Assembly: GCF_014699075.1 (NCBI RefSeq)
Contig: NZ_JACXAB010000003.1
Location: 124,001 to 188,000, forward strand
Source of the DNA: Microvirga sp.
Lineage (GTDB): Bacteria; Pseudomonadota; Alphaproteobacteria; Rhizobiales; Beijerinckiaceae
Direction of reading: 5' to 3'
DNA: 64,000 nucleotides
Below the pieces are notes generated by a model. It ran no database searches and was not told the DNA's origin. It was given only the letters and a program-made list of their open reading frames with translations. Both the position numbers and the translations under genes were made by a program. This document shows, piece by piece, positions 7,000-42,903 of the stretch. Within the stretch, counting starts at the first letter, position 1. Every line of letters starts with the position of its first letter.

Positions 7000-7001
7000 G
7001 G

Positions 7002-7355: not shown

Positions 7356-7440
7356 GAAACCTCGCGGATGGGAGAAAGGGCAGATCGAACCCGGGATTCT
7401 TTCGGACCCGCGCGTTCCGCGTCAAGCCACATCCATCGAA

Positions 7441-7488
7441 CCTGTTGTGAAAAGGCAGGTTTGACGGGAAACGGTTCCTGTTGAAAAA
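7441..7488. promoter_or_regulatory. Direct repeats in the uraH-puuD divergent promoter gap
   Basis: The 206-bp gap between uraH and puuD contains two similar blocks, CCTGTTGTGAAAA (7441-7453) and CCTGTTGAAAAA (7477-7488), 36 bp apart start to start. These could be binding sites for a regulator shared by both transcription units. No regulator of the ureide pathway is encoded in the window. Confidence 0.35.
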
Positions 7489-7561
7489 GCTTAAGCCACG
7501 GCCTATCGCAATCACGACCGCCGCCCTAGGCTAAGCATCCGTTCAATTTATCAGTGACTGC

Positions 7562-23104: not shown

Positions 23105-23112
23105 ACAGACCA

Positions 23113-25629: not shown

Positions 25630-26744
25630 GCACCTCCCCCGCCCTCCCCCTGGCCTTCGACGAAACCCGCCGGCGCGGCGGGATCCTCACCGGGCTCCTG
25701 TCCTCCGACCTGCCCCGTTCCCGCGCACTCAGCTTCATCCTGCTTGCCATCTTCGTGCTTTTGGCCGCGACCCCGTTCCTGTTCTCGGGTAGCCAGCCTG
25801 TGGGCACGGCGGCGAAGATCTGCGTGTTCATCGTGCTGGTCGCAAGCTACGACCTGCTGCTCGGCTATTCCGGCATCGTCTCCTTCGCCCACACCATGTT
25901 CTACGGCATCGGCGGCTACGGCATCGCCATTGCGCTCGAGCGCATCAGCCCCACTTGGAGTTCGGTCGCCATCGGCCTGGTGGCGGCGCTTGCCCTATCA
26001 GCCGTTCTGGCAATTGCTATCGGTTTGCTGTCACTTCGAGTGCGCGCCATCTTCTTCTCGATGATCACCCTGGCGGTGGCGACCGCGGCGGCTGTTCTGG
26101 CCTCCCAGCTGTCCGAGATCACAGGGGGTGAGGATGGCCTGTCGTTCCAGCTGCCTCCGGCGCTTCGCCCGGCCTTCCGGCTCCTCTCGGAGCCGGTCTT
26201 CGGCACCATGATCAACGGGCGCCTGCTCGCTTATTATCTGGTCTTCACTGTCTCGCTCATCGTTTTCCTCGCCCTGCTACGCATCGTGAACTCGCCCTTC
26301 GGCCGTGTGCTGCAGGCGATCCGCGAGAACGAGTTCCGGGCCGAGGCCCTGGGCTACCGCGTTGTTGCCTACCGCACGGCTGCCTCCGTCATCTCGGCTC
26401 TTGCCGCGACGATTGCCGGTGCCCTCATGGCTTTGTGGCTGCGCTACAACGGACCGGACACGACCCTGTCCTTCTCGATCATGATCGACATCCTGCTCAT
26501 GGTCGTGATCGGCGGCATGGGCACCATGTACGGCGCCGTCATCGGGGCAGCCCTGTTCGTGCTGGCCCAGAGCTACCTGCAGGTGCTCATGGGGGCCGGA
26601 AACGCTGCCCTCGCGGGCATCCCGCTCCTGCCCAACCTCATCCACCCGGACCGCTGGCTCCTGTGGCTCGGCGCCTTGTTCATCATCAGCGTCTATGCCT
26701 TTCCCGGCGGCATCGTCGGTCGCCTGAGGCAAGGGAAACCCTAA
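25626..26744 (+). CDS. livM: LIV-type ABC transporter permease (LivM-like)
   Basis: A 372-residue permease that completes the five-gene transporter. It shows SYDLLLGYSGIVSFAHTMFYGIGGYGIAIAL, the LivM hallmark, then LSLRVRAIFFSMITLAVATAAAVLASQLSEITGGEDGLSF, the coupling region GRVLQAIRENEFRAEALGYRVVAYR, and VVIGGMGTMYGAVIGAALFVLAQSYL. The ATG at 25626 overlaps the livH stop. A much longer in-frame reading from 24666 overlaps livH and is rejected. The order K-G-F-H-M differs from the second LIV-type operon at 37.3-42.1 kb, which is K-H-M-G-F. Confidence 0.92.
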   Translation: MSTSPALPLAFDETRRRGGILTGLLSSDLPRSRALSFILLAIFVLLAATPFLFSGSQPVGTAAKICVFIVLVASYDLLLGYSGIVSFAHTMFYGIGGYGIAIALERISPTWSSVAIGLVAALALSAVLAIAIGLLSLRVRAIFFSMITLAVATAAAVLASQLSEITGGEDGLSFQLPPALRPAFRLLSEPVFGTMINGRLLAYYLVFTVSLIVFLALLRIVNSPFGRVLQAIRENEFRAEALGYRVVAYRTAASVISALAATIAGALMALWLRYNGPDTTLSFSIMIDILLMVVIGGMGTMYGAVIGAALFVLAQSYLQVLMGAGNAALAGIPLLPNLIHPDRWLLWLGALFIISVYAFPGGIVGRLRQGKP

Positions 26745-26804
26745 AGGCCTAGCGGGGAAACTTAGCCGGTTTCGAACGTTTTCCTCCCAGGCGGAGGAAG
26801 CGCC

Positions 26805-27272
26805 ATGAGTCGTGCCTTTGTTCGTGAAGCTGAGGGCGGAGAAGCCTTCGAGGACCTGCCTGACCGGTCGATCAGTCCTCACCATCTCGTCACACCGGCA
26901 GGTCTGGCCCGCATGGATGCTGAAATCGCGTCGCTTGAGAAGCGCCTGACGGACGCCCAGGTCAGGGACGACAAGGCTGAGGTCGCCCGTCTCTCCCGCG
27001 ATCTGCGCTATTGGTCGGCCCGCAGGGTCTCAGCCGAGGTGGTGCCTCCGCCCACGGACACGTCTCATGTCCGCTTCGGAGCCGAAGTCACCTTCAAGCG
27101 CGAGGACGGACGACGACAGACCTACCGCATCGTCGGTGAGGATGAGGCCGATCCGGCCAAAGGCAGCCTCTCTTACATCTCACCCTTGGCTCAGGCCCTC
27201 ATGGGCACGGAGGTCGGAGATACGGTTGCCGTCGGGCAAGGTCAGGCCGAGATCGTCTCAATCGCCATCTGA
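26805..27272 (+). CDS. GreA/GreB-family elongation factor-like protein with short coiled coil
   Basis: A 155-residue protein with a Gre-type C-terminal FKBP-like domain (about 85-155, VRFGAEVTFKREDGRRQTYRIVGEDEADPAKGSLSYISPLAQALMGTEVGDTV). That block matches GreA/GreB, which bind RNA polymerase through this domain. The N-terminal coiled coil is short: helix one about 32-52, an acidic tip RDDK (D55, D56), helix two about 58-80. Canonical GreA has longer arms. It is preceded by GGAGGAAG, a strong ribosome site. It may stimulate transcript cleavage like GreA or compete at the secondary channel like Rnk or Gfh1; sequence alone does not decide. Confidence 0.8.
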   Translation: MSRAFVREAEGGEAFEDLPDRSISPHHLVTPAGLARMDAEIASLEKRLTDAQVRDDKAEVARLSRDLRYWSARRVSAEVVPPPTDTSHVRFGAEVTFKREDGRRQTYRIVGEDEADPAKGSLSYISPLAQALMGTEVGDTVAVGQGQAEIVSIAI

Positions 27273-29112: not shown

Positions 29113-29568
29113 TCAGGGTGCCGCCCGATGGGGAACAATGGCGGTCGCTTCAATTTCGATCCGAGCGGCCTTTTCCACGAGGCGCACGACCTGGACGAGC
29201 GCCATGGCAGGGTAATGGGTGCCAAACACGTCCCGATAGGCGCGGCCGAGTTCGCGCAGATTTGTAAGATAATCTTCGATATCGACCACATACCAGGTCA
29301 GCCGCACCAGATGCCGCGGCTCCGCACCACCCTCGGCCAGGATCGCCCGGACATTCTCGAAGATCTGGCGCGCCTGCGCGACGAAGCCATCGGCGAAAAC
29401 ACCTTTCTCGTCCCATCCGACGATACCGCCGGTGACGACGACCCTGCCCTCCGCCATCATGCCGTTGGCATAGCCCTTCGGGGTCGGCCAGTGCTTCGGG
29501 TTGAGAACTTCGGGCCCATCATCAGCGACGGGCAAGGGAGCCCCTCCAACAGCGGCTGTCATCGGCAT
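29113..29568 (-). CDS. RidA family protein (YjgF-like), enamine/imine deaminase candidate
   Basis: A 151-residue Rid-family protein. It shows LNPKHWPTPKGYANGMMAEGRVVVTGGIVGWDEKGVFADGFVAQARQIFENVRAILAEGGAEPRHLVRLTWYVVD, the usual Rid opening, and ends near GTHYPAMALVQVVRLVEKAARIEIEATAIV. The trailing Glu region and the Arg-containing loop resemble active Rid deaminases, but the exact Arg105-equivalent needs an alignment. It is the last gene of the aromatic-CoA unit, 8 bp after the acyl-CoA dehydrogenase. That places it where a ring enamine from a 2-amino aromatic would need hydrolysis to ammonia. The ATG at 29568 follows a purine-rich GAGAGAGA. Confidence 0.85.
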   Translation of the reverse strand: MPMTAAVGGAPLPVADDGPEVLNPKHWPTPKGYANGMMAEGRVVVTGGIVGWDEKGVFADGFVAQARQIFENVRAILAEGGAEPRHLVRLTWYVVDIEDYLTNLRELGRAYRDVFGTHYPAMALVQVVRLVEKAARIEIEATAIVPHRAAP

Positions 29569-29576
29569 TCTCTCTC

Positions 29577-30761
29577 TCAATGCTTGGATTGCTGTGCGTG
29601 CATCTTCAGGAGCTCCCGTGCAATCACGATCTTCTGCACTTCAGTCGCTCCCTCGTAAATCCTCAAGGCTCTGATCTCACGATAGAGCTCCTCAACCTTC
29701 ACGCCCTTGGTCACGCCGAGACCGCCGAAGATCTGCACTGCTTTGTCGATCACGCGCTGCGCCTCTTCCGTGGCGTGCATCTTCGCCATGGCGGCTTCGC
29801 GGGTGACGCGCTCCGCCCCCAGATCTTTGGTCCACGCCGCGCGGTAGACGAGGAGCGCAGCCGTATCGACACCGGTGGCCATGTCGGCCAGTGAGGCTTG
29901 CGTCAACTGAAGTTCTCCCAAAGGAGCCCCGAAGAGCTTGCGGAAGGAAGCGTGCTGCAGCGCCTCGTCGAGGGCGCGACGGGCTAGCCCGAGTGCCGCT
30001 GCTCCCACGGTCGAGCGAAAGACATCGAGCGTCGCCATGGCCACCCTGAACCCATCTCCCGGACCTCCGATGCGATGCGAAAGCGGCACGCGGCATCCCT
30101 CAAATCGAAGTGTCGCGAGAGGATGAGGCGCTATGACATCGATCCGGTTCTCGATCGTCAGCCCCGGTGTCTGCGCATCGACCACATAGGTCGACAGACC
30201 CTTTGCTCCAGGAGCCTCGTCCGACCTGGCGAAGACCACGTAATGGTCCGCAATGCCGCCATTCGAAATCCACGTCTTCACGCCGTCGAGGCGCACATGA
30301 TCCGGCCCGTCGGGCGTCGCCGTCATGCTCATGGCGGCCACATCCGATCCGGCCTCCGGCTCCGACAATGCAAAGGCTGCAATGGACTCGCCACGGGCAA
30401 CCGGCGGCAGGTACCGATCCTTCAGCGCTTCCGAGCCGAACAGGGTGATCGGGCCCGTTCCGAGACCCTGCATGGCGAAGGCGAAATCCGCCAGCCCGTC
30501 CTGACAGGCCAACGTCTCGCGGGCAAGGCACAGGGTGCGGACATCGAAGGTCGGTGTCAGGCCACCATAGGCCTGAGGCACGACCGCCTTGAGCCATCCG
30601 CCTTCGCCGAGGCGGCGTACGAGATTGCGGCAGGACGCGTCCACGTCATGGTGATCGACAAGAGGACGGATCTCCCGTGCAGCCCAGTCGCGCAAACCCT
30701 CGGCAAACTGCCGATGGCGGGCCTCAAAGAAGGGCCAGGAGAGAAAGCTCGAATCGACCAC
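29577..30761 (-). CDS. Acyl-CoA dehydrogenase
   Basis: A 394-residue flavin enzyme with the standard acyl-CoA dehydrogenase order. It has the N-terminal helices, then the FAD block [23 protein letters not shown], then [19 protein letters not shown], the C-terminal helix bundle, and [19 protein letters not shown], where the Glu of YEG occupies the usual catalytic base position. The start is GTG at 30761 with AGGGAG upstream. It follows the crotonase gene by 1 bp and precedes RidA, inside the aromatic-CoA degradation unit. It probably oxidises an acyl- or ring-CoA intermediate formed after the oxidoreductase step. The precise substrate is inference. Confidence 0.88.
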
Positions 30762-30762
30762 G

Positions 30763-31599
30763 TCAATCTCCCTTGAAGACCGGTTTTTCCTTCGCCGCGA
30801 AGGCGCGATAGGCGCGGGCGAAGTCCTCGGTCGTCATGCACAGGGCCTGGGCCACCGCCTCGGCTTCGATGGCCTCTTCGACCGACATGGCCCATTCCAT
30901 CGCGAGCATGCGCTTCGTCATCGTGTTGGCGTAGGTCGGCCCGGTGCCGATCATCTGGGCCAGATTACGCGCTTCGCCCAGAAGCTCACCGGAATCGACA
31001 ACGCGACTGAAGAAGCCCCACCGCTCGCCTTCTTCGGCACTCATGAAGCGACCGGTATAGAGCAGCTCCGAGGCGCGTCCCTGACCGATGATGCGAGGGA
31101 GAATGGCACAGGCGCCCATGTCGCAGCCTGCAAGGCCCACCTTGTTGAACAGGAATGCCACCTTTGCGCCGGGGGCCGCCAGACGGATGTCGGAGGCCAT
31201 GGCCACGATCGCGCCTGCGCCGGCGCAGATGCCCTCGACGGCCGCGATGATCGGCTGAGGCGCCGCCCGCATTGCCTTCACGAGTTCTCCGGTCATGCGA
31301 GTGAAGGCGGTAAGGTCTTTCGTATTCATCTCGACCAGCGGACCGATGATCTCGAAGACATCGCCGCCGGACGAGAAGTTGCCACCGGCACCGGTCACAA
31401 CAATAACCTTGACGTCCTCGTCCTTCGCACAGGCATGAAAGAAATCCGCCAGCTCGCGATAGCTCTCAAAGGTGAGCGGGTTCTTCTTCTCCGGACGATT
31501 GAGCGTGACCGTTGCAACAGGTCCGTCAACGGTCAGGAGAAAATGACGTGGCTCATACGTTGCGAGCGGCAGCGTAACGGAATTGGCAAACTGCATCAC
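30763..31599 (-). CDS. Enoyl-CoA hydratase/isomerase (crotonase) family protein lacking the canonical Glu pair
   Basis: A 278-residue crotonase-fold protein. The oxyanion block [17 protein letters not shown] and the second block [26 protein letters not shown] are clear. Compared with classical hydratases, the first catalytic Glu (GGGCELAM) is replaced by Ile in GAGAIVAM. The second (GQPEILLG) is replaced by Lys in LFNKVGLAG, while an Asp stands in GLAGCDMGA, a position used by isomerases and some hydrolases of the family. Hydration of a plain enoyl-CoA therefore looks unlikely, and isomerisation or ring hydrolysis is possible. It overlaps the MarR gene by 4 bp. Confidence 0.82.
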
Positions 31600-32105
31600 T
31601 GGCCTTCTCCCTGGATGGCACGCCGTGCCGACAGCTTGGTTTTTCCAAGAAGTCGCATGAGCTCGCCCCGTTCCTTCTCCGTCAGATCACCGAACAGCTC
31701 CGCAATCCAGTGCTCGTGCTCCGCCGCCATGGCGCGAAACTCGACGCGTCCGCTCTGCGTCAGGCTGATCACCGACGCTCTGCGATCCGTCGGAGAAGCA
31801 GTGCGCACGATATGACCGGAGGCGACCAACCGGTCGACGAGACCAGTGAGATTGCCGTTCGAGACCATCATGCGCTTGGAGAGGTCGGACAAGGTCATGC
31901 CATCGGGTGCCTTGTCGAGTTGAGCCATCAGGTCGAAACGGGGCAAAGTCACGTCGAACTGTTCTCGCAGGCGACGGCGCACCTCGCCTTCGATGAGGGT
32001 GGTGCAGGTGAGAAGGCGCAGCCAGAGGCGCAGTTCCTCCCGGTGATCCTCCGGCATCTCGACGGCCTTGGTTTCGGCGTCGAGCGGAATGGCCTGATCG
32101 TCCAT
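31596..32105 (-). CDS. MarR family transcription regulator
   Basis: A 169-residue regulator with a winged helix. The N-terminal helices ([38 protein letters not shown]) lead to the HTH ([30 protein letters not shown]) and the wing [16 protein letters not shown], with the family Asp-Arg pair. MarR proteins of aromatic-acid clusters usually repress until the aryl-CoA ester binds. It lies inside the unit between the SDR and the crotonase, so it probably regulates its own operon. Two matching AT-rich dyads at 35255-35274 and 37150-37169 are candidate operators. Confidence 0.9.
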
Positions 32106-32106
32106 C

Positions 32107-32868
32107 CTAGATCTCCCCCCCGGCCACGACGACGGCCTGCCCCGTCACGGAGCGTGCTTCCTCGCTGCAGAGCCAAAGCACTGCACCGGCCACTTCCGAC
32201 GGGTCAATCAATCGGCCCTGAGGATTGTGCTTCACAAGCTCTCCAAGGGCTTCCTCTCGTGTCCTGCCGGTCTTTGCCATGATCGTCCCGAGACTCTCTG
32301 CCACGAGATCGGTGTCGGTAAAACCCGGACAGACGGCATTCACCGTCACGCCGGTTCTGGCGGTCTCGAGCGCCAGGGCGCGAACGAAGCCGATCACGGC
32401 GTGCTTGGCGGCGCAGTAAGCGCTCACATAAGGATAGCCCTTCAGACCCGCAGTCGAAGCGACGGCAACAATGCGTCCGAAACCTCGTTGGGTCATGGAA
32501 TGCAGCACCGCCTGAGCCACGTTCGTGACGCCGAGCAGGTTCACATCCAGCATCTGCCGAAAGACCTCTGGGCCGGATTTCATGAAAGGTGCGGAAGCCG
32601 CCCCGCCGGCATTGGCGATCATCAGATCGACAGGGCCGTAGCGCGAGACCGATTCCTCCACGGCGGCCTGCACTCTTTCAGCATCCGAGACATCAGCCAC
32701 GGCCGCCGCGTGAGCATCGCCATGCATGATGGCCTGCTCGAGCGTCGCAGGGTTGCGCCCCACGATAGTCACAGTCGCCCCGGTTTTTACGAGAGAGGCT
32801 GCGATGGCCCTTCCGATTCCGCGGCCGCCGCCCGTGACCAGTGCATGCCGGCCTTTGAGAGTTGTCAT
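32107..32868 (-). CDS. Short-chain dehydrogenase/reductase (SDR)
   Basis: A 253-residue classical SDR. It has the coenzyme motif TGGGRGIGRA near residue 13, NAGG in the middle, the catalytic SAYCAAKH (Tyr and Lys of YxxxK) and VCPGFTDTDLV after it. The ATG at 32868 matches the family start; an in-frame upstream start at 32901 adds unrelated residues that overlap the previous gene. In this cluster it is a candidate for oxidising or reducing a hydroxy- or oxo-ring intermediate bound as a CoA ester. Cofactor preference is not settled by the motif alone. It is followed by the MarR gene with 1 bp between them. Confidence 0.88.
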   Translation of the reverse strand: MTTLKGRHALVTGGGRGIGRAIAASLVKTGATVTIVGRNPATLEQAIMHGDAHAAAVADVSDAERVQAAVEESVSRYGPVDLMIANAGGAASAPFMKSGPEVFRQMLDVNLLGVTNVAQAVLHSMTQRGFGRIVAVASTAGLKGYPYVSAYCAAKHAVIGFVRALALETARTGVTVNAVCPGFTDTDLVAESLGTIMAKTGRTREEALGELVKHNPQGRLIDPSEVAGAVLWLCSEEARSVTGQAVVVAGGEI

Positions 32869-32875
32869 GATCGTC

Positions 32876-35230
32876 TCACTCTGCCGCCAGAGGCTTCTCA
32901 CCGGCCTCCATCTTCAGCTCAGCGCGGGTCTTAGGCTTGGCCTTGATCTTGAGCTCCTCCAGATCCTGCCGGTCGCGCACGGAATTGCGGAAGATCTGAT
33001 CCCGGCCGGCATGATACTGCGGCGGACAGTGAATGCCGGCCGCGCCGTACCAGGCCGCAGCCTTCATGGTGAAGAACGGATCGACGAGGTGCGGACGTCC
33101 GAGCGCCACGAGATCCGCACGGCCCGCAGCCAGGATCGTGTTCACCTGGTCGGCCGTCGTGATGTTGCCGACGCACATGGTGGCGACACGGGCCTCGTTG
33201 CGAACCTGATCCGAGAACGGCGTCTGGAACATGCGCCCATAGATCGGCCGTGCCTCGCGCACGGTCTGCCCGGTCGAAACATCAACGAGATCGACTCCAT
33301 GCTCTGCGAAGGCGCGGGCAACCTCGACCGCTTCTTCACCAGTGACGCCTCCCTCGGCCCAATCGGTCGCAGAAATGCGAACCGACATGGGCTTGTGCGC
33401 AGGCCAGACCTCACGCATGGCCTCGAAAACCTCCAGCGGATAGCGCAGGCGGTTTTCGAGGGATCCTCCATATTCGTCCGTGCGCCGGTTGGTGAGCGGC
33501 GAGATGAAGCTCGCCAGCAGGTACCCGTGCGCGCAGTGGAGTTCGAGCATGTCGAAGCCGGCGCGCTCGCCACGGATGGCAGCCTCGACGAACTGCACCT
33601 TGATGGTGTCGAGTTCCGCCCGGGTCACCTCGCGAGGCATCTGGCTGTCCGGGAAGTAGGGAATGGGCGATGCGGAGCAGATGTCCCAGGCACCCTCCTC
33701 CAGCGGCCGGTCGATGCCCTCCCACATCAGCTTGGTGGCGCCCTTACGGCCTGCATGGCCGAGCTGCAGGCAGATCTTCGTCTCCGAGTTCGCATGAACG
33801 AAGTCGACGATGCGCTTCCAGGCGGCCTCCTGTTCGTCGTTCCATAGTCCCGTGCAGCCTAGCGTGATGCGGGATTCCGGCGAGACGCAGGTCATCTCCG
33901 TGAACACGAGCCCCGCCCCGCCTGTGGCACGGGAGCCGTAATGCACAAGATGAAAGTCGTTCGGCACGCCGTCCTTCGCCGAATACATGTCCATGGGCGA
34001 CACCACCACCCGGTTGGCGACCGTCATCTCGCGCAGGCGGTAGGGCTGGAACATGGGGACCGTGGGGTTCTCGACCGCAACGTCGAAGCCCTGCCGGCGC
34101 ACCTGTTTGGCAAAGGTCTGATCGACGGCCGCGACGAAATCGGGCGCCCGCAGACGCAGGTTGTCGTAGGTGATCGCTTTGGCGCGGGTCATCACACCGA
34201 AAGCAAACTGCACCGGGTCGAAGTCCCAGAAGCGGGCCACATGCTCGAACCACACGAGCGACACGTCAGCCGCGTGCTGGGTTTTCTCCACCTCCTCGCG
34301 CCGTCCCGTCTCGTAGAGCGCCAAGGCCCCTTCCACGCTCCGCTCGCGGCGGATAGCTTCATAGAGCGCGATGGCATCCTCCATGGCGAGCTTCGTGCCC
34401 GAGCCGATGGAAAAATGCGCCGAGGCCTTGGCGTCGCCAAGCAGCACCCTGTTGCCCATGACCCAGCGCTTGTTGCGGATCATCGGGAAATTGCGCCAGA
34501 TCGAACGGTTGGTGAGAACGCGGTGCCCGCCGAGGAACCAGCCGAAGATCTGCTCCATGAGCGCGGCGGATTCTGCCTCGTTCTTGTCCTTCAGCCCGGC
34601 TCTCTCGAAGGTCTCCGGGTCGGTCTCGAACACCCAGGTCGAGCGGTTCGCCTCGTACTGATAGGCATGGGCGATGAAGGGCCCCCACTCGGTCTCCTGG
34701 AAGATGAAGGTGAAGGCGTCGAGCGGCTTGGTCGAACCCATCCAGGTGAACTTGTTGGGCCTCAGGTCGACCTCGGGCTGGAAGTGATCCGCATAGCGCT
34801 CCCGGAAGCGGCTGTTGATGCCATCGGCCACCACGACCAGATCCGCATCAGCGAACAGGCTCTCGTCGTCGACATCCGCTTCGTAGCGCAACGTGACGCC
34901 GAGTTCCTCCGCCCGATCCTGCAGGATCAGGAGCAGCGTGCGCCGCGAGCATCCGCAGAAGCCGTTACCCCCGATCCGGTGCTCGGTGTCCCTGAAATGA
35001 ATGGCGATGTCGTCCCAATAGGCGAACTCCCGGACGATCCGCTGGTAGCTTGGCAGATCGTATTTTTCGAAATTGTCGAGTGTCGCATCGGAAAAAACGA
35101 CCCCGAAGCCGAAGGTCTCGTCAGCCCGGTTACGCTCATAGACCGTGATGCTGGATTCCGGCCGAAGCTTCTTCAGCAGAATTGCAAAATACAGCCCAGC
35201 AGGGCCGCCGCCGATGATCGCCGTTTTCAT
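32876..35230 (-). CDS. Bifunctional flavin monooxygenase/OYE-type reductase of 2-aminobenzoyl-CoA or salicylyl-CoA type
   Basis: A 784-residue two-domain flavoenzyme. The N-terminal part (about 1-380) is an FAD aromatic monooxygenase with [24 protein letters not shown] and [34 protein letters not shown]. The C-terminal part (about 395-760) is an Old Yellow Enzyme barrel with [39 protein letters not shown] and [28 protein letters not shown]. This architecture is that of 2-aminobenzoyl-CoA monooxygenase/reductase from Azoarcus evansii, which hydroxylates and then reduces the ring. Database names also call such proteins salicylyl-CoA 5-hydroxylase/oxidoreductase. The nearby RidA favours an amino substrate. 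A long plus-strand frame here is a shadow. Confidence 0.88.
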
Positions 35231-35254
35231 GGGATCCTGTCCGAGTTACACGTT

Positions 35255-35274
35255 TATTTTAAGCTTAAAGCAAT
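35255..35274. promoter_or_regulatory. Candidate MarR operator 1
   Basis: TATTTTAAGCTTAAAGCAAT lies in the 89-bp gap upstream of the monooxygenase/reductase gene (transcribed leftward). Its core TTTAAGCTTAAA (35258-35269) is a perfect 12-bp palindrome. It matches the site at 37150-37169 in 18 of 20 positions. The position is right for a repressor site of the downstream unit that also encodes MarR. Confidence 0.6.
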
Positions 35275-35319
35275 TTCCGATCAACCTGAAAGCCCGTTGC
35301 CAGGCTTCCGGCCTTATCG

Positions 35320-36969
35320 TCAGGCACTCATCGCCTCCTGCGGCTTGGACACGTCCTGCGCGATGCGCCGCAATTCGAAACGCTGGAGCTTGCCAGTCTG
35401 AGTCCGGGGCAACGCGTCCACAAATTCAATCAGGCGTGGATATTTATATGGAGCGATTTCCTGCTTCACGTGATCCTGCAGCGCCTTCATCAGCTCGGCG
35501 CTTGGAACATGATCCGGACGAAGGACCACGTAAGCTTTGACCACGGTGCCCCGGCCATCGTCCGGCGCGCCAACGACGCCGCATTCCGCGACAGCCGGGT
35601 GGGTAAGGAGCGCCGCCTCGACCTCAGGACCAGCAATGTTATATCCAGCGGAGATGATCATGTCGTCGGAGCGCGCCTGATACCAGAAGTATCCATCCTC
35701 ATCCATGAGGTAGGTGTCCCCGGTGACGTTCCAGCCATTCTGCACGTATTTGCCCTGCCGTTCGTCGGCGAGATAGCGACATCCTGTTGGCCCACGGACA
35801 GCGAGACGGCCGACACTTCCGAGCGGAAGATCCCGCCCCTCTTCGTCGATGACCTTCGCCTCATAACCGGGAACGGGTTTGCCGGTGGCACCGGGGCGGA
35901 TCTCCTCTTCCCTGGCAGCGATGAAGATGTGCAGCATTTCCGTCGCGCCGATGCCGTCCATCAGCCGGATGTTCGTTGCATCCCTCCACGCCTCGAACGT
36001 GCCCTTCGGCAGCGGCTCGCCGGCAGAGACGCACTTGCGCAGGGACGAGATGTCGTAGCCTTCCAGCTTCGACAACATAGCGCGATAGGCGGTCGGTGCC
36101 GTGAAGCAGATCGTGGCTTTATACTGCATGATCGCCGGGAGAAGATCGTCAGGACCGGCCTTCTCCAGCAGCACGGTCGAGGCTCCCACGCTCATGGGGA
36201 ACAGCACGATGCCGCCAAGCCCGAATGTGAAGGCGAGCGGCGGGGAGCCGATGAAGCGGTCGCTCGGCTCGGGCCGCAGCACGTTGCGGGAATAGGCATC
36301 GCAGATCGCGAGCATGTCGCGATGGAAATGCATGGTGCCCTTCGGCTCGCCCGTCGTGCCCGAGGTGAAGCCCATCAGGCACACATCGTTCGCGGCCGTA
36401 TCGACGGCCTCGAACTCGGCTGAAGCCCCGCTGATCAAGCTCTCCAGGCTGTCCGGTTTGCCCGGGCCCCAATACACCACGTGCTGCAGATCAGGCGCCA
36501 AAGCCTTGGCGCGCTCCATCTCCTCCGCGAGGCGATGATCGCAAAGCGCAATCGTGATGCGGGCCTTGTTCAGCGGATAGGCGATCTCCCTGGCCCGCAG
36601 TAGCGGCATGGTAGCGACGACGACACCGCCGGCCTTCAGCACCGCCAGGTAGGCCGCGACCATCATCGGGTTGTTGGCGGATCGCAGAAGGACCCGGTTG
36701 CCAGGCACGAAACCGAGCCTCTGGACCAGCACGTTGCAGATCCGGTTCACCCGGTCCTGAAGTTCGCGGTAGGTGAGCGTCTCGGCCGGGCTGATGAGGC
36801 AGGGCTCGTCACCCCTGCCCGCCTCGACCCACCTGTCGAGGAATGCCGCGGCGCAGTTCAGCCGCTCGGGATACTGCAGTTCGGGTCGGTTGAAGATGAA
36901 TGCCGGCCATTGATCCCGGGGCGGAAGGTTGTCTCTCGCGAAGGTATCCACATGCGCCGTGTTCGCCAT
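35320..36969 (-). CDS. Aryl-CoA ligase of the benzoate/2-aminobenzoate family
   Basis: A 549-residue AMP-forming acid-CoA ligase that activates the aromatic acid. The core motifs are complete: LMGFTSGTTGEPKGTMHFHRDML (ATP loop), MDGIGATEMLHIF, GDTYLMDEDGYFWYQARSDDMIISAGYNIAGPEVE and the C-terminal PRTQTGKLQRFELR carrying the adenylation Lys. GATEMLHIF and the HFHRDML stretch resemble benzoate-CoA and 2-aminobenzoate-CoA ligases more than fatty-acid ligases. The start has a strong GGAGGAG. It is transcribed leftward from the gap shared with the divergent transport operon. Confidence 0.87.
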   Translation of the reverse strand: MANTAHVDTFARDNLPPRDQWPAFIFNRPELQYPERLNCAAAFLDRWVEAGRGDEPCLISPAETLTYRELQDRVNRICNVLVQRLGFVPGNRVLLRSANNPMMVAAYLAVLKAGGVVVATMPLLRAREIAYPLNKARITIALCDHRLAEEMERAKALAPDLQHVVYWGPGKPDSLESLISGASAEFEAVDTAANDVCLMGFTSGTTGEPKGTMHFHRDMLAICDAYSRNVLRPEPSDRFIGSPPLAFTFGLGGIVLFPMSVGASTVLLEKAGPDDLLPAIMQYKATICFTAPTAYRAMLSKLEGYDISSLRKCVSAGEPLPKGTFEAWRDATNIRLMDGIGATEMLHIFIAAREEEIRPGATGKPVPGYEAKVIDEEGRDLPLGSVGRLAVRGPTGCRYLADERQGKYVQNGWNVTGDTYLMDEDGYFWYQARSDDMIISAGYNIAGPEVEAALLTHPAVAECGVVGAPDDGRGTVVKAYVVLRPDHVPSAELMKALQDHVKQEIAPYKYPRLIEFVDALPRTQTGKLQRFELRRIAQDVSKPQEAMSA

Positions 36970-37345
36970 CGTCCGCTCCTCCGTTCGGTTGTGGAGCAGG
37001 AGAGCAATGCCGCGCGGGCCTGGGAAGCCGGGACCTGATGCGCCGAGGGCCGCAAACGCGCTCCTCAGGCTCCCTCGTCCCGCCTCTCACGCAGCCGTCA
37101 TCCCACCAACCTTCCCCAGCGAAACAATCCACTTGAAGAAGGCAGAAATTATTTTAAACTTAAAACAATACTTGGCAATCCCAAATTTGGGGATGCCGGT
37201 GCGAGGGCTCCGATAAAGGGAGTGTTCGCAAGCAACGTTTTGCGGCAGATTAGCGCCGCCCCTTCCGTCGAGGCGCCTTACGTCCCGCCGGGAACAATCA
37301 CGCAAGCACGGCAAACGTGCGCAGGGAACAGCCACTCGGGAGACT
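36970..37345. promoter_or_regulatory. 376-bp divergent promoter region between the ligase and the LIV-type transport operon
   Basis: No gene of credible size is seen in this gap. It separates the leftward aryl-CoA ligase from the rightward substrate-binding protein. About 37140-37200 is markedly AT-rich and holds the second operator-like dyad, which could serve both promoters. The remainder is GC-rich, with no other motif I can support. Confidence 0.6.
37150..37169. promoter_or_regulatory. Candidate MarR operator 2
   Basis: TATTTTAAACTTAAAACAAT in the divergent gap differs from the 35255-35274 site at only two positions, both G to A. The TTTTAA..TTAAAA arms keep the dyad. It lies about 180 bp from each of the two flanking start codons, so it could control both the ligase and the transporter. 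Confidence 0.6.
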
Positions 37346-38524
37346 ATGATGAACGCAACAATCAAAACGCTTGGCCTTGCAGCGGCCGTGACTCTGACTG
37401 CCGCGCCTGCCATGGCGCAGGAGAAGCTGAAGGTCGGCCTTCTCCTCACCCTCTCCGGCCCATCGGCCGTTCTCGGCCAGCATGCGCGGGACGGCTTCCA
37501 ACTCGCCATGAAGGATCTGGGCGGCAAACTCGGTGGACGCGACGTCGAAGTGATCGTCGTCGATGACGAACTGAAGCCCGATGTTGCCGTGACGAAGGTC
37601 AAAGGCCTCATCGAACGCGACAAGGTCGACTTCGTTGTCGGCCCGATCTTTTCGAACGTGGCGGTCGCCACCCACAAGCCGATCGTCGACTCCAAGACCT
37701 TCTACATCAGCGTGAATGCCGGCCCCTCGAACCTCGCCGGCAAGAGCTGCAATCCGTACTTCTTCGCCACCTCGTACCAAAACGACCAGAACCATGAGGT
37801 TCTCGGCAAGGTGGCGCAGGACCGCGGTTACAAGAAGGTCTATCTGCTGGCCCCGAACTATCAGGCCGGCAAGGATGCTCTGGCGGGCTTCAAGCGGCAC
37901 TACAAGGGTGAGATCGTCGAGGAATCCTACACACCTCTCAATACCCTCGACTTCCAGTCCGAGCTTGCGAAAATCGCCTCCATGCAGCCGGACGCCATCT
38001 TCACGTTCATGCCGGGCGGCATGGGCGTGAACCTCGTCAAGCAGTACCGCGCGGCAGGCCTTGCAGACCGCATCCCATTCCTCTCCGCCTTCACGGTGGA
38101 CGAGACGAACCTGCCGGCGCAGCAGGATGCCGCCATCGGCATGCTCAGCGGCTCGAATTGGGCCCCGAACATGGATACGCCGGAGAACAAGAAGTTTGTC
38201 GCTGCATACGAGGCCGCCTACAACACGGTGCCTGCCTCCTACGCGATGCACTCCTATGACGCGGCTCTCCTGATCGATGCCGCTCTCAAGGCAACGGGCG
38301 GCAAGACCGACAACAAGGACGCCGTGCGCGCGGCCATCCAGAAGGCCGAGTTCAAGTCCCTACGCGGCGACTTCAAGTTCGGCGCCAACGGCTTCCCGGT
38401 CCAGGACTTTTATCTGGTGAAGGCGGCCAAGCGTTCCGACGGCAAGCTGCAGACGGAAATCGCCGAGAAGGTGTTCGACAACTATGCGGACGCCTATGCC
38501 AAGGAATGCGCACCGACGAACTAA
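37346..38524 (+). CDS. LIV-type ABC transporter, substrate-binding protein (aromatic-acid cluster)
   Basis: A 392-residue periplasmic binding protein. A signal peptide (about 1-24, ending PAMAQ) is followed by EKLKVGLLLTLSGPSAVLGQHARDGFQLAMKDLGGKLGGRDVEVIVVDDELKPDVAV, the LivK-like opening, then VDFVVGPIFSNVAVATHKPIV and the hinge MPGGMGVNLVKQYRAAGL. The ATG pair at 37346/37349 leaves the exact start open by one residue. It heads an operon with two permeases, two ATPases and a hydrolase, and is divergent from the aryl-CoA ligase. Binding proteins of this kind serve aromatic acids in Rhodopseudomonas and Azoarcus, so an aromatic ligand is likely. Confidence 0.9.
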   Translation: MMNATIKTLGLAAAVTLTAAPAMAQEKLKVGLLLTLSGPSAVLGQHARDGFQLAMKDLGGKLGGRDVEVIVVDDELKPDVAVTKVKGLIERDKVDFVVGPIFSNVAVATHKPIVDSKTFYISVNAGPSNLAGKSCNPYFFATSYQNDQNHEVLGKVAQDRGYKKVYLLAPNYQAGKDALAGFKRHYKGEIVEESYTPLNTLDFQSELAKIASMQPDAIFTFMPGGMGVNLVKQYRAAGLADRIPFLSAFTVDETNLPAQQDAAIGMLSGSNWAPNMDTPENKKFVAAYEAAYNTVPASYAMHSYDAALLIDAALKATGGKTDNKDAVRAAIQKAEFKSLRGDFKFGANGFPVQDFYLVKAAKRSDGKLQTEIAEKVFDNYADAYAKECAPTN

Positions 38525-38540
38525 GCTCATTGAGCTGACC

Positions 38541-38572
38541 CGGCCTGTCTCGGAGACCTCTGAGACAGGCCG
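38541..38572 (+). terminator. Intercistronic hairpin after the binding-protein gene
   Basis: CGGCCTGTCTC (38541-38551) and GAGACAGGCCG (38562-38572) form a perfect 11-bp stem with a 10-nt loop, followed by tctctttc. It lies 16 bp after the binding-protein stop and 90 bp before the permease start. Partial termination here would give more binding protein than permease. Confidence 0.65.
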
Positions 38573-38661
38573 TCTCTTTCAGTGCACCTTTTGATGCCCT
38601 CGCCTGAGGGCATGCGAGCGGAGGCTCGGTTGATGCAGGGCCAGCAGCCAGTGACGCGCCA

Positions 38662-39582
38662 ATGACAGCAACCCTCTTTTTCGTCCAGGCTCTGAACGGC
38701 CTTCAGTTCGGCCTCATCCTCTTCCTCATCGCCGCGGGCCTAACGCTGGTCTTCGGGGTGATGGACTTCATCAACCTGGCGCACGGCGTGCAGTACATGG
38801 TCGGCGCCTATCTGGTCGCGGCGTTCAGCACCTGGACTGGAAGCTTCGGCTGGGCGCTGCTCCTCGCCCTTCCCTCGGCGCTGGCCTTCGGCCTCCTCCT
38901 GGAAGCGCTCGTGTTCCGCCACCTCTACGACCGTGATCATCTCGACCAGGTGCTGGCGACCTTCGGGGTGATCCTGTTCCTGAACCAGGGTGTGAAGTTC
39001 GTCTGGGGCGCGGCACCTTTAAGCGTTCCCGTGCCCGAACTGCTCTCGGGATCGGTTGAGATCGCTAACGGGCTCCTCTACCCGGTCTACCGGCTCGCCA
39101 TCATCGCCGCCGGTCTCGTCATCGCGGCCCTGCTTTACGTTCTGGTCAATCACACCCGCGTCGGCATGCTGGTGCGCGCGGGCGCCAGCAACGCGGCGAT
39201 GGTCTCGGCGCTCGGCGTCAACATCCAGCGGCTGTTCATGGTGGTGTTCGGGTTCGGCGCCATGCTGGCGGGCTTTGCCGGCGCCATGGTCGCGCCAATC
39301 CTTTCTGTCGAGCCGGGCATGGGCGACAACATCCTCATCCTGGCCTTTGTGGTGATCGTCATCGGCGGCATCGGCTCGATTCGTGGTGCTTTCCTCGCCG
39401 CACTCCTGATCGGCCTCGTGGATACGGTCGGCCGCTCTTTCGCGCCCAACCTGCTGCGCCTCGTCCTCGATCCCGCAGCCGCGAGCCAGACCGGGCGCGC
39501 CATCGCACCGATGCTGATCTACATCTTCATGGCTGCCGTGCTGTTCTTCCGTCCCTCCGGCCTGTTTCCTGTCAAGCGTTAA
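38662..39582 (+). CDS. livH: LIV-type ABC transporter permease (LivH-like)
   Basis: A 306-residue permease, the usual LivH length. FLIAAGLTLVFGVMDFINLAHGVQYMVGAYLVAAF is the family hallmark. It is followed by YDRDHLDQVLATFGVILFLNQGVKFVWG, the coupling region TRVGMLVRAGASNAAMVSALGVNIQRLFMVVFG and LAFVVIVIGGIGSIRGAFLAALLIGLV. It is the first membrane gene after the binding protein and the hairpin, and starts 10 bp before livM. It belongs to the aromatic-acid transport operon. Confidence 0.92.
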   Translation: MTATLFFVQALNGLQFGLILFLIAAGLTLVFGVMDFINLAHGVQYMVGAYLVAAFSTWTGSFGWALLLALPSALAFGLLLEALVFRHLYDRDHLDQVLATFGVILFLNQGVKFVWGAAPLSVPVPELLSGSVEIANGLLYPVYRLAIIAAGLVIAALLYVLVNHTRVGMLVRAGASNAAMVSALGVNIQRLFMVVFGFGAMLAGFAGAMVAPILSVEPGMGDNILILAFVVIVIGGIGSIRGAFLAALLIGLVDTVGRSFAPNLLRLVLDPAAASQTGRAIAPMLIYIFMAAVLFFRPSGLFPVKR

Positions 39583-39592
39583 GGGCGGAGCC

Positions 39593-40624
39593 ATGACCGA
39601 GATCGCCGAAACCCACTCCGCTCCCGCCCCGTCTCTCACGACGCGGCTGGAGATCGTCCCCTTGGTACTCTTCACCGCCTTTGCGGCGGCACCGCTTCTC
39701 GCCGCCTACTCCGGTGCGGAAGGCTATGTCCTGTCCCTGCTCACGCGGGTGATGATCTTCGGCATCGCCGCCATGGCGCTCGATCTCATCCTCGGCTATG
39801 GCGCTCTCGTGAGTTTTGGCCATGCAGCCTTTCTCGGCCTTGGCGGCTATGCGGTCGGCATCCTGGCGAGCCACGGCTTCGAGGATGCTCTCATTCAGGT
39901 CCCCGTCGCGCTCCTTGCCTCTGCTGCCTTCGCTTTCGTCACGGGTGCCATTTCCCTGCGGACGAAGGGCGTCTACTTCATCATGATCACCCTCGCCTTC
40001 GGGCAGATGCTGTACTTCCTTGCGACTTCGCTTGCGCCTTATGGCGGGGACGATGGCATGACGCTCGCATCCCGTAGCCTCGTTGCCGGGACCGACTGGC
40101 TGGAGAACGATTTCACCTTCTACTGGGTGTGCCTGCTCTGCCTGTTTGGAGTCTATGCCCTCTCCCGCTCGATCGCCGCCTCGCGGTTCGGCCGCGTCCT
40201 GCGCGGCACCCGGGAAAATGCCATTCGCATGGAAGCCATTGGCTTCCGGCCCTTCCGCTTTCAGCTCGCGGCCTATGTGATCAGCGGCATGATGGCAGGC
40301 CTCGCCGGATGCCTCCTGGCCAATCAGGCGGAATTCGTCAGTCCGTCCTTCATGACATGGCAGCGTTCAGGCGAGTTGATCTTCATGGTGGTGCTCGGCG
40401 GGCTCGGCTCCCTGCACGGAGCAATCATCGGAGCCGCCGCCTTCCTGCTGCTGGAGGAGTTTCTGCCTGAGATCCTCCATACTTTGAGCTTCTTTCTGAG
40501 CGAAGAGACACGGTCGCATCTTGCCGAGAACTGGAAAATGGTGTTCGGCCCCCTGCTCATCCTGATCGTGCTGTTCGTCAGGGGCGGGATCATGGGTCTG
40601 CTGCGGAGGCCGCATCATGGCTGA
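39593..40624 (+). CDS. livM: LIV-type ABC transporter permease (LivM-like)
   Basis: A 343-residue permease. It shows AMALDLILGYGALVSFGHAAFLGLGGYAVGILA, the LivM hallmark, then ISLRTKGVYFIMITLAFGQMLYFLATSLAPYGGDDGMTL, the coupling region FGRVLRGTRENAIRMEAIGFRPFRFQLAAYV and MVVLGGLGSLHGAIIGAAAFLLLEEFL. Its 3' end overlaps the ATPase start by 8 bp. Together with the LivH-like protein it should form the membrane channel of this transporter. Confidence 0.92.
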   Translation: MTEIAETHSAPAPSLTTRLEIVPLVLFTAFAAAPLLAAYSGAEGYVLSLLTRVMIFGIAAMALDLILGYGALVSFGHAAFLGLGGYAVGILASHGFEDALIQVPVALLASAAFAFVTGAISLRTKGVYFIMITLAFGQMLYFLATSLAPYGGDDGMTLASRSLVAGTDWLENDFTFYWVCLLCLFGVYALSRSIAASRFGRVLRGTRENAIRMEAIGFRPFRFQLAAYVISGMMAGLAGCLLANQAEFVSPSFMTWQRSGELIFMVVLGGLGSLHGAIIGAAAFLLLEEFLPEILHTLSFFLSEETRSHLAENWKMVFGPLLILIVLFVRGGIMGLLRRPHHG

Positions 40625-41372
40625 GGCGCTGCTCGAACTCCGCAACCTGCGGAAGAACTACGGCGCGCTCGTCGTAACCGATGATGTCAGCCTCTCGGTT
40701 GAGCCCGGCGAGTTGCATGCCATCATCGGCCCCAACGGCGCGGGCAAGACGACCCTCATTCACCAGATCTCAGGGATGCTGCCGTCCAACTCAGGACAGG
40801 TCCTGTTCGCCGGCGAGGACATCACGCATCTCGCCATGCCGCGGAGGGTGGAACGCGGGCTGGCACGCTCGTTCCAGATCACGTCGATCTTGCCCGGTTT
40901 CTCCGCGTTGGAGAATGTGGCACTAGCGGTGCAGGCCCGCTCCGGCTCGAGTTTTCGCTTCCTCGGCAATGCATCGCAGGAGAAAGACCTGAACGGCACG
41001 GCGTTGGAATGCCTCGGCGAGGTCGGCCTCGGCGCACGCGCCCACATCCCGGCCGGGCTTCTGTCCTATGGCGAGAAGCGCCAGCTGGAGCTTGCCATTG
41101 GCCTTGCGACGGCGCCGAAGCTGCTCCTTCTCGACGAGCCGCTTGCAGGAACGGGCCACGACGAGTCTCAACGCGTGGTCGAGACCCTGCGCCGCCTGAA
41201 GAACCGTTTGACCATCGTTCTCATCGAGCACGACATGGAGGCAGTCTTCTCCCTGGCCGACCGCGTCTCGGTTCTCGTCTATGGGCGCGTCATCGCTACC
41301 GACACGCCGGAGCGGATCAGAGCCAACCCCGAAGTGCGTGCTGCATACCTTGGCGACGAGGAGATGGTCTGA
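40617..41372 (+). CDS. livG: LIV-type ABC transporter ATPase (LivG-like)
   Basis: A 251-residue ATPase with Walker A GPNGAGKTTLIHQISG, Q-loop ARSFQITSILPGFSALENVALAVQA, signature LLSYGEKRQLELAIGLA (LSYGE, as usual in LivG), Walker B LLLLDEPLAGTG and the H-loop VLIEHDMEAV. It overlaps the preceding permease by 8 bp and shares 1 bp with the following ATPase start, so translation is probably coupled. Its regular partner is the LivF-like ATPase directly downstream. Confidence 0.92.
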   Translation: MAEALLELRNLRKNYGALVVTDDVSLSVEPGELHAIIGPNGAGKTTLIHQISGMLPSNSGQVLFAGEDITHLAMPRRVERGLARSFQITSILPGFSALENVALAVQARSGSSFRFLGNASQEKDLNGTALECLGEVGLGARAHIPAGLLSYGEKRQLELAIGLATAPKLLLLDEPLAGTGHDESQRVVETLRRLKNRLTIVLIEHDMEAVFSLADRVSVLVYGRVIATDTPERIRANPEVRAAYLGDEEMV

Positions 41373-42070
41373 TGCTCTCCGTCCGACATCTCCAGGCCTC
41401 TTACGGCGCAGCCCAGGTTCTGTTCGACATCTCTCTCGACGTCGGCGCCGGCGAGGTGGTGACGCTGCTCGGGCGCAACGGCATGGGCAAGACCACCACG
41501 GTGCGCTCCATCATGGGCCTCCTGCGCCCGCGTGGCGGCGAAGTCCACTTTGAGGGCAGTGTCGTCACAGGGCTCGCACCCTATCGCATCGCCCAGACCG
41601 GCATCGGCCTCGTGCCGGAAGGGCGCCAGATCTTCCCGACCCTGACGGTCGAAGAGAACCTCGTCGCCACCGCATCCACACGAACTGGCTCGCGCCGCTG
41701 GACCCTGGATGCGGTGTACGACCTGTTTCCGCGCCTGAAGGAGCGTCGGAGCAATCTCGGGACGCAGCTCTCAGGCGGCGAGCAGCAGATGCTCGCCATT
41801 GGTCGCGCCCTGATGACGAACCCAAAATTGCTCATTCTGGATGAAGCGACGGAGGGCTTGGCTCCATTGATCCGCGCCGAGATCTGGACCTGCCTCAAGC
41901 GTCTCAAGGGTGAGCGCCAATCGATTCTGGTCATCGACAAGAACGTGGGTGTGCTGGCCACCTTCGCCGATCGCCATGTGATCATCGAGAAGGGCCGCTC
42001 GGTCTGGACGGGAACCAGTGACGAGCTGATGACTGACGCCAGCCTCAAGGACCGGTATCTGCACGTCTAA
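41372..42070 (+). CDS. livF: LIV-type ABC transporter ATPase (LivF-like)
   Basis: A 232-residue ATPase with Walker A GRNGMGKTTTVRSIMGLL, the LVPEGRQIFPTLTVEENLVATA block, signature LSGGEQQMLAIGRAL and Walker B LLILDEATEGLAP. In the last motif the common DEP is DEA, and the Glu is kept. The ATG at 41372 overlaps the livG stop by 1 bp; an in-frame extension to 41009 lies within livG and is rejected. It completes the transporter in order K-H-M-G-F. Confidence 0.92.
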   Translation: MLSVRHLQASYGAAQVLFDISLDVGAGEVVTLLGRNGMGKTTTVRSIMGLLRPRGGEVHFEGSVVTGLAPYRIAQTGIGLVPEGRQIFPTLTVEENLVATASTRTGSRRWTLDAVYDLFPRLKERRSNLGTQLSGGEQQMLAIGRALMTNPKLLILDEATEGLAPLIRAEIWTCLKRLKGERQSILVIDKNVGVLATFADRHVIIEKGRSVWTGTSDELMTDASLKDRYLHV

Positions 42071-42081
42071 GGACACACGCC

Positions 42082-42903
42082 ATGGCATCCGATGACCTCG
42101 ATTTCGAGGCTGAATACAACAATCGGGCGCGAGTGCCGGACCATCCCGTTCATATTGCCGGCTGGCAGCGGGATGCCGCCGCTTATCGCGAGACGGCTCG
42201 CGGCGAGTTCGATCTAACCTATGGTCCTGGCGAGCGGCACCGGCTCGACCTCTTCTTCCCGGAGAACGGCGATGGCGCCGGTCCCGTCGTGCTGTTCATC
42301 CATGGGGGCTACTGGCAAGCCTTCGATAAATCCTCCTCCAGCCATCTCGCCCGTGGCGCCAACATGCGTGGGCTGACGGTGGCGGTGCCGAGCTACACCC
42401 TCGCGCCTGCAGCCACACTCGCCGAGATCATCACTGAGATCGAAGCCGCAGCGGACTTTATCATGCAGCGGACAGGCCGCTCCATTGTTGCCACAGGTCA
42501 CTCGGCCGGCGGGCACTTGGCCGCCTGCCTCATGGCACGGTCAGCTCCGTCGCAGCGCCCCGTCCGGGCAGCCATGCCGATTTCCGGCCTGTTCGATCTT
42601 CCGCCTCTGGTAGGAACCTCGATCAACAAGGCACTCGGGCTCACGGTCGAGGAGGCGCACCGCCTCAGCCCTCTTGAATGGACGTCGCCAAGCCGCGGAA
42701 ATCTTGTCGCCGTTGTCGGCGGGGCGGAAAGCAGCGAGTTCCTGCGCCAATCCCGCGTCATCGTGGACACATGGAGAAGAGCCGGAGTGACGACCCGCTA
42801 TCACGAAGTGCCAGGCGCCCACCATTTTGACGTGATCGCCGGCCTTGCGGATTCGGCGGATCCGCTCGTTGACATCCTGGTCGAGCTCGCCGCAGAGGCC
42901 TGA
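42082..42903 (+). CDS. Alpha/beta hydrolase of the kynurenine formamidase (AFMID) type
   Basis: A 273-residue cytoplasmic hydrolase. It has the oxyanion motif HGGYWQ, the nucleophile elbow GHSAGG (Ser141) and a C-terminal GAHHFD with the catalytic His (247 or 248). The stretch ISGLFDLPPLVGTSINKALGLTVEEAHRLSPL closely follows the animal-type arylformamidase pattern of SGxFDLxPxxxTSxNxALxLTxExAxxxSP. These enzymes cleave N-formylkynurenine, which leads towards anthranilate. It is the last gene of the transport operon, 11 bp after livF, and so probably acts on the imported compound. Other amide or ester substrates are possible. Confidence 0.8.
   Translation: MASDDLDFEAEYNNRARVPDHPVHIAGWQRDAAAYRETARGEFDLTYGPGERHRLDLFFPENGDGAGPVVLFIHGGYWQAFDKSSSSHLARGANMRGLTVAVPSYTLAPAATLAEIITEIEAAADFIMQRTGRSIVATGHSAGGHLAACLMARSAPSQRPVRAAMPISGLFDLPPLVGTSINKALGLTVEEAHRLSPLEWTSPSRGNLVAVVGGAESSEFLRQSRVIVDTWRRAGVTTRYHEVPGAHHFDVIAGLADSADPLVDILVELAAEA

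Follow-up and report, generated by a model that had tools for sequence, protein, structure and literature searches.

Results

A divergent catabolic and transport locus

The DNA analysed here (the window, 64,000 nucleotides) comes from a Microvirga sp. (6.6 Mb assembly GCF_014699075.1, contig NZ_JACXAB010000003.1, positions 124,001 to 188,000), and at positions 29113-42903 of the window lie two divergent operons which, judging from their genes and genomic context, very probably serve to take up anthranilate and degrade it by an aerobic coenzyme A (CoA) route. Read inwards from the ligase, the minus-strand operon encodes an aryl-CoA ligase, a monooxygenase/Old Yellow Enzyme (OYE) fusion, a short-chain dehydrogenase/reductase (SDR), a MarR regulator, a crotonase, an acyl-CoA dehydrogenase and a RidA-family protein, while the plus-strand operon encodes a substrate-binding protein, two permeases and two ATPases of a leucine/isoleucine/valine (LIV)-type transporter, followed by an alpha/beta hydrolase (Table 1). 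From RidA to the fusion, neighbouring genes overlap or follow each other directly (gaps of -4, 1, -4, 1 and -26 bp), the ligase is separated from the fusion by 89 bp, and the two operons diverge across 376 bp. A preliminary description made from the letters alone had named these genes, and all of them were located: family scans support the seven catabolic and regulatory genes, and the claimed LIV-type transporter and arylformamidase (AFMID)-like hydrolase do stand on the divergent operon, three of the five transporter genes being recognized by scans and two from sequence and order. At 13.8 kb the interval is slightly shorter than the fifteen kilobases given there.

Table 1. Features of the locus at 29113-42903, with positions in the window
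Feature	Position	Strand	Basis
RidA-family protein P0002, candidate enamine/imine deaminase	29113..29580	-	PF01042
Acyl-CoA dehydrogenase	29577..30761	-	family scans
Crotonase-fold enzyme P0004, PRK08258 type, without hydratase glutamates, Asp160 kept	30763..31599	-	NF006107 above cut-off, alignments
MarR-family regulator	31596..32105	-	family scans
SDR oxidoreductase	32107..32901	-	family scans
2-Aminobenzoyl-CoA monooxygenase/reductase-type fusion, 784 aa (flavin monooxygenase + OYE)	32876..35230	-	NF006101, relatives in the Protein Data Bank (PDB)
Aryl-CoA ligase, probably anthranilate-CoA ligase	35320..36969	-	TIGR02262, PDB match 4wv3, identity to pAL1 ligase
Candidate MarR operator ATTATTTTAAACTTAAAACAAT	37148..37169		0-6 mismatches in 29/29 intergenic regions
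Second palindrome GGCAATCCCAAATTTGGGGATGCC, less conserved	37174..37197		intergenic alignment
Periplasmic substrate-binding protein P0009, LIV type	37346..38524	+	family scans
LIV permease 1 P0010	38662..39582	+	family scan
LIV permease 2 P0011	39593..40624	+	sequence and order only
LIV ATPase 1 P0012	40617..41372	+	family scan
LIV ATPase 2 P0013	41369..42070	+	sequence and order only
Alpha/beta hydrolase P0014, candidate kynurenine formamidase	42082..42903	+	alpha/beta hydrolase families, PDB relatives

In a sample of 37 Microvirga genomes, the full-length fusion was over the cut-off in 31, with a partial match in one more (G025). Using the proteins of the window, we mapped 35 further fusion loci, 30 from Microvirga and five from other families of the order. 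Because 28 of the 30 Microvirga loci keep the ligase and the substrate-binding protein diverging (across 247-395 bp), the gene arrangement across the genus is not due to chance; the two exceptions are G003, where the locus meets a contig end, and G007, where it is rearranged. The locus of G010 has the arrangement of the window with no hydrolase match. The five loci outside Microvirga keep most of the catabolic set, the ligase being missing from the stretch mapped in L070, the crotonase from that in L073 and MarR from that in L074. Relatives of the fusion that align over 80% or more of the query were also found in 95 plasmid records, all at less than 60% identity.

A second LIV-type transporter (substrate-binding protein and permeases) lies a few kb from the locus, at 21914-27272 (+), and low-identity LIV genes occur close to the fusion cluster in several relatives.

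The fusion protein and the ligase

The fusion scored 1146 bits against NF006101 (cut-off 1078), carries the domains PF01494 and PF00724, and has VioD and OYE as its PDB relatives. With 784 aa and both domains in place, it bears out the view taken in the preliminary description that it marks the hybrid pathway of the Azoarcus evansii type. The ligase passes the TIGR02262 cut-off, and its top PDB match is the anthranilate-CoA ligase 4wv3 (E 1e-110), with benzoate-CoA ligases behind (best 3.5e-83); it is 55% identical to the ligase of the Arthrobacter plasmid pAL1. Passages of PMC3534580 report activity of the Arthrobacter Rue61a ligases on anthranilate, as well as a CoA ester of a C7H8O4 acid seen only when cells were grown on anthranilate, and the role of a 2-aminobenzoyl-CoA cluster in degrading anthranilate is reported to have been confirmed genetically (Qu et al. 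2017, cited in a passage of PMC6221969). Anthranilate 1,2-dioxygenase was considered as an alternative route and rejected, as none of the 37 Microvirga genomes had it over the cut-off (weaker matches in four, no match in the genome of the window).

Among fusion relatives, residue 414 of the OYE half, between SPM and MYS, is Asp, Ala or Cys; classical OYE relatives often have Cys at the matching position.

Linkage to tryptophan degradation and a divergent kynureninase clade

The locus, which the preliminary description called complete-looking, does not by itself hold the whole tryptophan route, as tryptophan 2,3-dioxygenase (TDO) and a kynureninase-like gene lie outside the window. In the genome of the window, TDO was found on contig C57 (114148-114939) with the kynureninase-like gene P0017 about 20 bp from it. 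TDO is present in 30 of the 31 fusion-bearing Microvirga genomes, counting the divergent TDO of G007, and in three of the six without a full fusion, counting G025 with its partial one (Fisher p 0.0096, a test that ignores relatedness). Moreover, the fusion/transporter locus is physically linked to the tryptophan side in three independent cases. In M. pudoricolor (G002, also L147), the ligase, transporter, hydrolase, TDO and kynureninase-like gene form a single run; in Roseicella (L184), TDO and the kynureninase-like gene make one contiguous stretch with the fusion cluster; and in one metagenome-assembled genome (MAG) a gap of about 90 bp separates the fusion from the kynureninase-like gene that comes after it on the same strand, with TDO on a separate contig. 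This MAG appears as both G307 and L188, which are 100% identical over 4173 bases and were counted as one case.

Canonical kynureninase (TIGR01814) was over the cut-off in none of the 37 Microvirga genomes (two weaker matches, one of them a member of the P0017 clade), and at E 0.001 the model matched neither P0017 nor any other protein in the genome of the window. P0017 does carry the kynureninase C-terminal domain PF22580 (34.2 bits, cut-off 27), and a Y212-K213 pair is invariant in both the 12-sequence and the 40-sequence alignment of its clade. A profile of 40 clade members, drawn from 80 loci, found Pseudomonas fluorescens kynureninase at the top (5.7e-17), followed by a cysteine desulfurase-type protein (3.1e-7). 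The same enzyme (1qz9) was the top Foldseek match of the predicted model (mean pLDDT 88) of a 93%-identical relative, with E 6.4e-21, a TM score of 0.82 and about two orders of E-value over the runner-up. Although identity to the clade model is only about 20% and P0017 escapes TIGR01814, the Tyr-Lys pair and a C-terminal Arg are aligned between 1qz9 and the clade; we take these to be functional residues of kynureninase, the Tyr preceding the lysine that binds pyridoxal phosphate.

Among the best 80 of at least 589 confirmed clade loci, 27 of them from Microvirga, TDO is present in 75 and lies within 300 bp in 71 (48 and 45 of 53 when Microvirga is left aside); the five loci that lack TDO are L155, L166, L178, L188 and L192. 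Within a class sample of 289 genomes, nine contain a clade member, and all nine have a TDO match, four of these over the cut-off. Five of the nine members adjoin TDO (G000, G263, G072, G280 and G335), that of G307 adjoins the fusion, and those of G064, G123 and G338 are near neither; G072 and G338 have a canonical kynureninase besides. Cumulatively, these data indicate that the TDO-paired divergent clade probably does the job of kynureninase in Microvirga, and they suggest that kynureninase can be missed by annotation in genomes having TDO. Streptomyces relatives 35% identical to P0017 are already named kynureninase by NCBI, and the clade is therefore new as a recognised group at most. Our literature search turned up no study of either this Microvirga locus or the divergent clade, which does not prove that none exists.

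Further observations concern such pairings. A longer divergent TDO (open reading frames 361-443 aa long, sharing about 30% identity with the usual TDO where compared) is also paired with a kynureninase-like gene at L104:9044-10273 and in L168, L170, L183, L189 and L196. In the Acidimicrobiia MAG L183 (2312-4683), this pair adjoins RidA-like (35%) and crotonase-like (47%) genes, with no fusion within the stretch examined. On a Streptomyces goshikiensis plasmid (L202:5479-9179), TDO, kynureninase and a benzoate-CoA ligase family gene adjoin an enediyne chromoprotein gene and may supply anthranilate to a natural product.

The hydrolase P0014 is a candidate kynurenine formamidase

P0014 matches alpha/beta hydrolase families, and Drosophila kynurenine formamidase, with which it shares the motifs HGGYW and GHSAG, ranks third among its 40 listed PDB relatives and is the sole kynurenine-named one among those listed. 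Of the 37 Microvirga genomes, 28 carry an orthologue with at least 54% identity, and all 28 have TDO; G010, which has the fusion and no TDO, gave only a 34% match located elsewhere. The alternative formamidase KynB was over the cut-off in none of the 37 genomes, with weaker matches in eight and no match in the genome of the window. However, five genomes break the distribution: G015 and G029 have TDO and no P0014 match at E 1e-20, and G004, G034 and G036 have TDO and a different hydrolase (33-37%) in the slot of P0014. For this reason we keep P0014 only as a candidate kynurenine formamidase, a role for which the evidence is suggestive.

Within the same pathway, P0014 might free anthranilate from environmental esters or amides instead of deformylating N-formylkynurenine. 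All five exceptional genomes would fit this role, as would a 37% relative of P0014 in a Paracoccus cluster, where no TDO is annotated in the 26-kb plasmid stretch. Keeping in mind that every genome with one of the closer orthologues has TDO, that the TDO-less G010 has only a distant match, that KynB gave the result described above, and that a kynurenine formamidase is among the closest solved relatives, we regard release from esters or amides as possible, though the less likely of the two functions.

The crotonase probably is not a hydratase

The crotonase P0004 passes the NF006107 cut-off, and its best solved relative is 3g64, a 'putative enoyl-CoA hydratase'. Both hydratase glutamate positions, which we took from the residues of rat enoyl-CoA hydratase, are non-acidic in all 13 aligned crotonases, that of the window included. 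Asp160 is kept and aligns with the catalytic Asp of PaaG (1,2-epoxyphenylacetyl-CoA isomerase), another member of the crotonase family, which, within the region aligned with P0004, likewise lacks acidic residues where a hydratase has its glutamates. This aspartate of PaaG is described as a proton relay in a passage of PMC9493321. PaaG differs in cluster and substrate, and it is 3g64, not PaaG, that stands closest to P0004 among solved relatives; a fold model of P0004 built from three sequences reached a mean pLDDT of only 66 and was not used. Because the hydratase glutamates are absent and the PaaG-type aspartate is kept, P0004 is probably an isomerase or a ring-opening enzyme.

By annotation, P0004 would be an ordinary enoyl-CoA hydratase of the beta-oxidation spiral, in keeping with the family names of the crotonase models, and the A. 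evansii work of 2001 reportedly proposed beta-oxidation enzymes. The proposal is repeated in a passage of a review (PMC4539516). Against the residue pattern of all 13 sequences, we consider this assignment unlikely.

Intergenic palindromes

The candidate operator ATTATTTTAAACTTAAAACAAT aligns in 29 of 29 ligase/transporter intergenic regions, where shuffled sequences average 10.8 mismatches. Similar sites with 3-6 mismatches occur near the fusion or its divergent neighbour (by open reading frame coordinates) in seven of nine further loci, which include L075, the locus of Microvirga G007; with one shuffle per locus, those of the seven positives gave 7-10, and the L071 site beats its shuffle by one mismatch only. 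The sites of L184 (7 mismatches, shuffle 10) and L188 (8, shuffle 7) are not convincing. The palindrome was also considered as the most conserved intergenic part, and this was rejected: its conservation averages 0.88 (0.72 overall), yet it ranks about 35th of 355 alignment windows, and the most conserved stretch adjoins the transporter start. MarR would probably repress both divergent operons at this AT-rich palindrome, with release perhaps by a CoA thioester.

Discussion

The locus is a further case of the known A. evansii kind of 2-aminobenzoyl-CoA pathway, and neither pathway nor composition is new. Schuehle et al. reportedly described in 2001, in Azoarcus (Aromatoleum) evansii, clusters with a CoA ligase, the monooxygenase/OYE fusion, three beta-oxidation-like enzymes, MarR, a RidA-type protein and an ABC transporter component. 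By gene content as so reported, the linked ligase, fusion, SDR, crotonase, acyl-CoA dehydrogenase, MarR and RidA genes of the window make up the same set, to which the Microvirga locus adds a full LIV transporter and an arylformamidase-like hydrolase, and one Microvirga relative TDO and a kynureninase-like gene in the same run. The anthranilate cluster of Arthrobacter sp. Rue61a pAL1 shares the fusion (53% identical), the ligase and RidA, but no crotonase, acyl-CoA dehydrogenase, SDR or LIV genes are annotated in its 26-kb stretch, which has an FAH-family hydrolase, a cupin, a thioesterase and PaaX-type regulators of its own. Plasmid 1 of Paracoccus denitrificans PD1222 comes with fusion, SDR, MarR, crotonase, acyl-CoA dehydrogenase, RidA, ligase, LIV transporter and hydrolase; it differs in an extra thioesterase, in having the genes on one strand and in a hydrolase just 37% identical.

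The gene context favours anthranilate over the annotated salicylate as substrate because of the affinity of the ligase, the linkage in M. pudoricolor, the linkages in Roseicella and the MAG, and the co-occurrence with TDO in Microvirga; uptake and catabolism of anthranilate, as the preliminary description had it, is thus the best-supported reading. That the ligase would instead form salicylyl-CoA, to be hydroxylated by the fusion to gentisyl-CoA, is very improbable, since this finds backing in the NF006101 name and the salicylate-type annotation of many listed plasmid relatives of the fusion but is opposed by the linked TDO and kynureninase-like genes, by a ligase closest to anthranilate-CoA ligase and by a RidA gene that suits a nitrogen-containing substrate. 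The salicylyl-CoA name apparently goes back to a monooxygenase that has no OYE half, and our data suggest that 'salicylyl-CoA 5-hydroxylase' is misleading for such clusters.

Several observations weigh against the anthranilate reading. The NCBI model NF006101 is named salicylyl-CoA 5-hydroxylase/oxidoreductase; TDO and the kynureninase-like gene of the window's genome lie on another contig than the locus; and the pairing of fusion and TDO is broken in G010, which lacks TDO, in G015 and G029, which carry TDO but no full fusion, and in G025, whose fusion match beside its TDO is only partial. Arg133 of RidA, which we take to be the active-site arginine, is present in the window and in six of 13 relatives, including that of Arthrobacter (L107), whereas the other seven (L070-L073, L108, L183 and L184) have Gly, Ala, Ser or Asp at this position; its loss may fit a thioester substrate without a free carboxylate, or may mean another role. 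Lastly, upstream of TDO (within about 420 bp, 36 TDO loci, several from one genome) the best sites for ATTATTTTAAACTTAAAACAAT differ from it at 7-13 positions, compared with 0-6 mismatches in the 29 ligase/transporter regions. An operator shared with TDO was therefore rejected, and where TDO lies outside the operon it is probably regulated otherwise.

In the pathway that we propose, the LIV transporter would import anthranilate, kynurenine or tryptophan, and a further supply of anthranilate would arise within the cell as TDO, the arylformamidase-like hydrolase and the divergent kynureninase convert tryptophan. The ligase, like relatives with reported activity, would form 2-aminobenzoyl-CoA. 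From this thioester, the A. evansii fusion is reported to make 2-amino-5-oxocyclohex-1-ene-1-carbonyl-CoA (the first two steps of that pathway are summarised in a passage of PMC4539516), and by analogy the fusion here would carry out C5 hydroxylation and ring reduction to the same enamine thioester. Hydrolysis of the enamine, for which RidA is the candidate, would yield 2,5-dioxocyclohexane-1-carbonyl-CoA; deaminase precedents for RidA relatives in aromatic routes are given in part of PMC6449761. The crotonase could then open or isomerise the ring between C1 and C2, hydrolytic opening giving 4-oxopimelyl-CoA, and the SDR and acyl-CoA dehydrogenase would carry the chain into beta-oxidation; SDR action, deamination and opening may follow one another in a different order. 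The preliminary description had expected candidates for each step after ring reduction; candidate genes are indeed present, but their assignment is weaker than it implied, given a crotonase without the hydratase residues and an unconserved RidA arginine.

A compact, conserved locus of soil bacteria offers a candidate for most steps, two of them narrowed by residue evidence, in carriers many of which are named isolates. The two refinements to the known scheme are the divergent kynureninase clade and the crotonase that is probably no hydratase. We tentatively combine them, though with somewhat less than even confidence, in the proposal that the crotonase is the missing non-oxygenolytic ring-opening or isomerising enzyme, acting through its PaaG-type aspartate, and that, fed by TDO-paired kynureninases outside the curated model, it would give Microvirga and other alphaproteobacteria a full route from tryptophan to central metabolism that annotation has missed. 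According to a passage of PMC9007349, GapMind omitted the breakdown of tryptophan along this route because too little was known about it.

Other genes in the window

By eye, a polysaccharide-deacetylase-type allantoinase (PuuE-like) frame and a PuuD-like membrane protein at 5560-8788 suggest urate degradation. A 1628-aa frame at 56881-61767, also judged by eye, resembles a 4-alpha-glucanotransferase fused to a maltooligosyltrehalose synthase and adjoins trehalose hydrolase-like and glycogen synthase-like genes.

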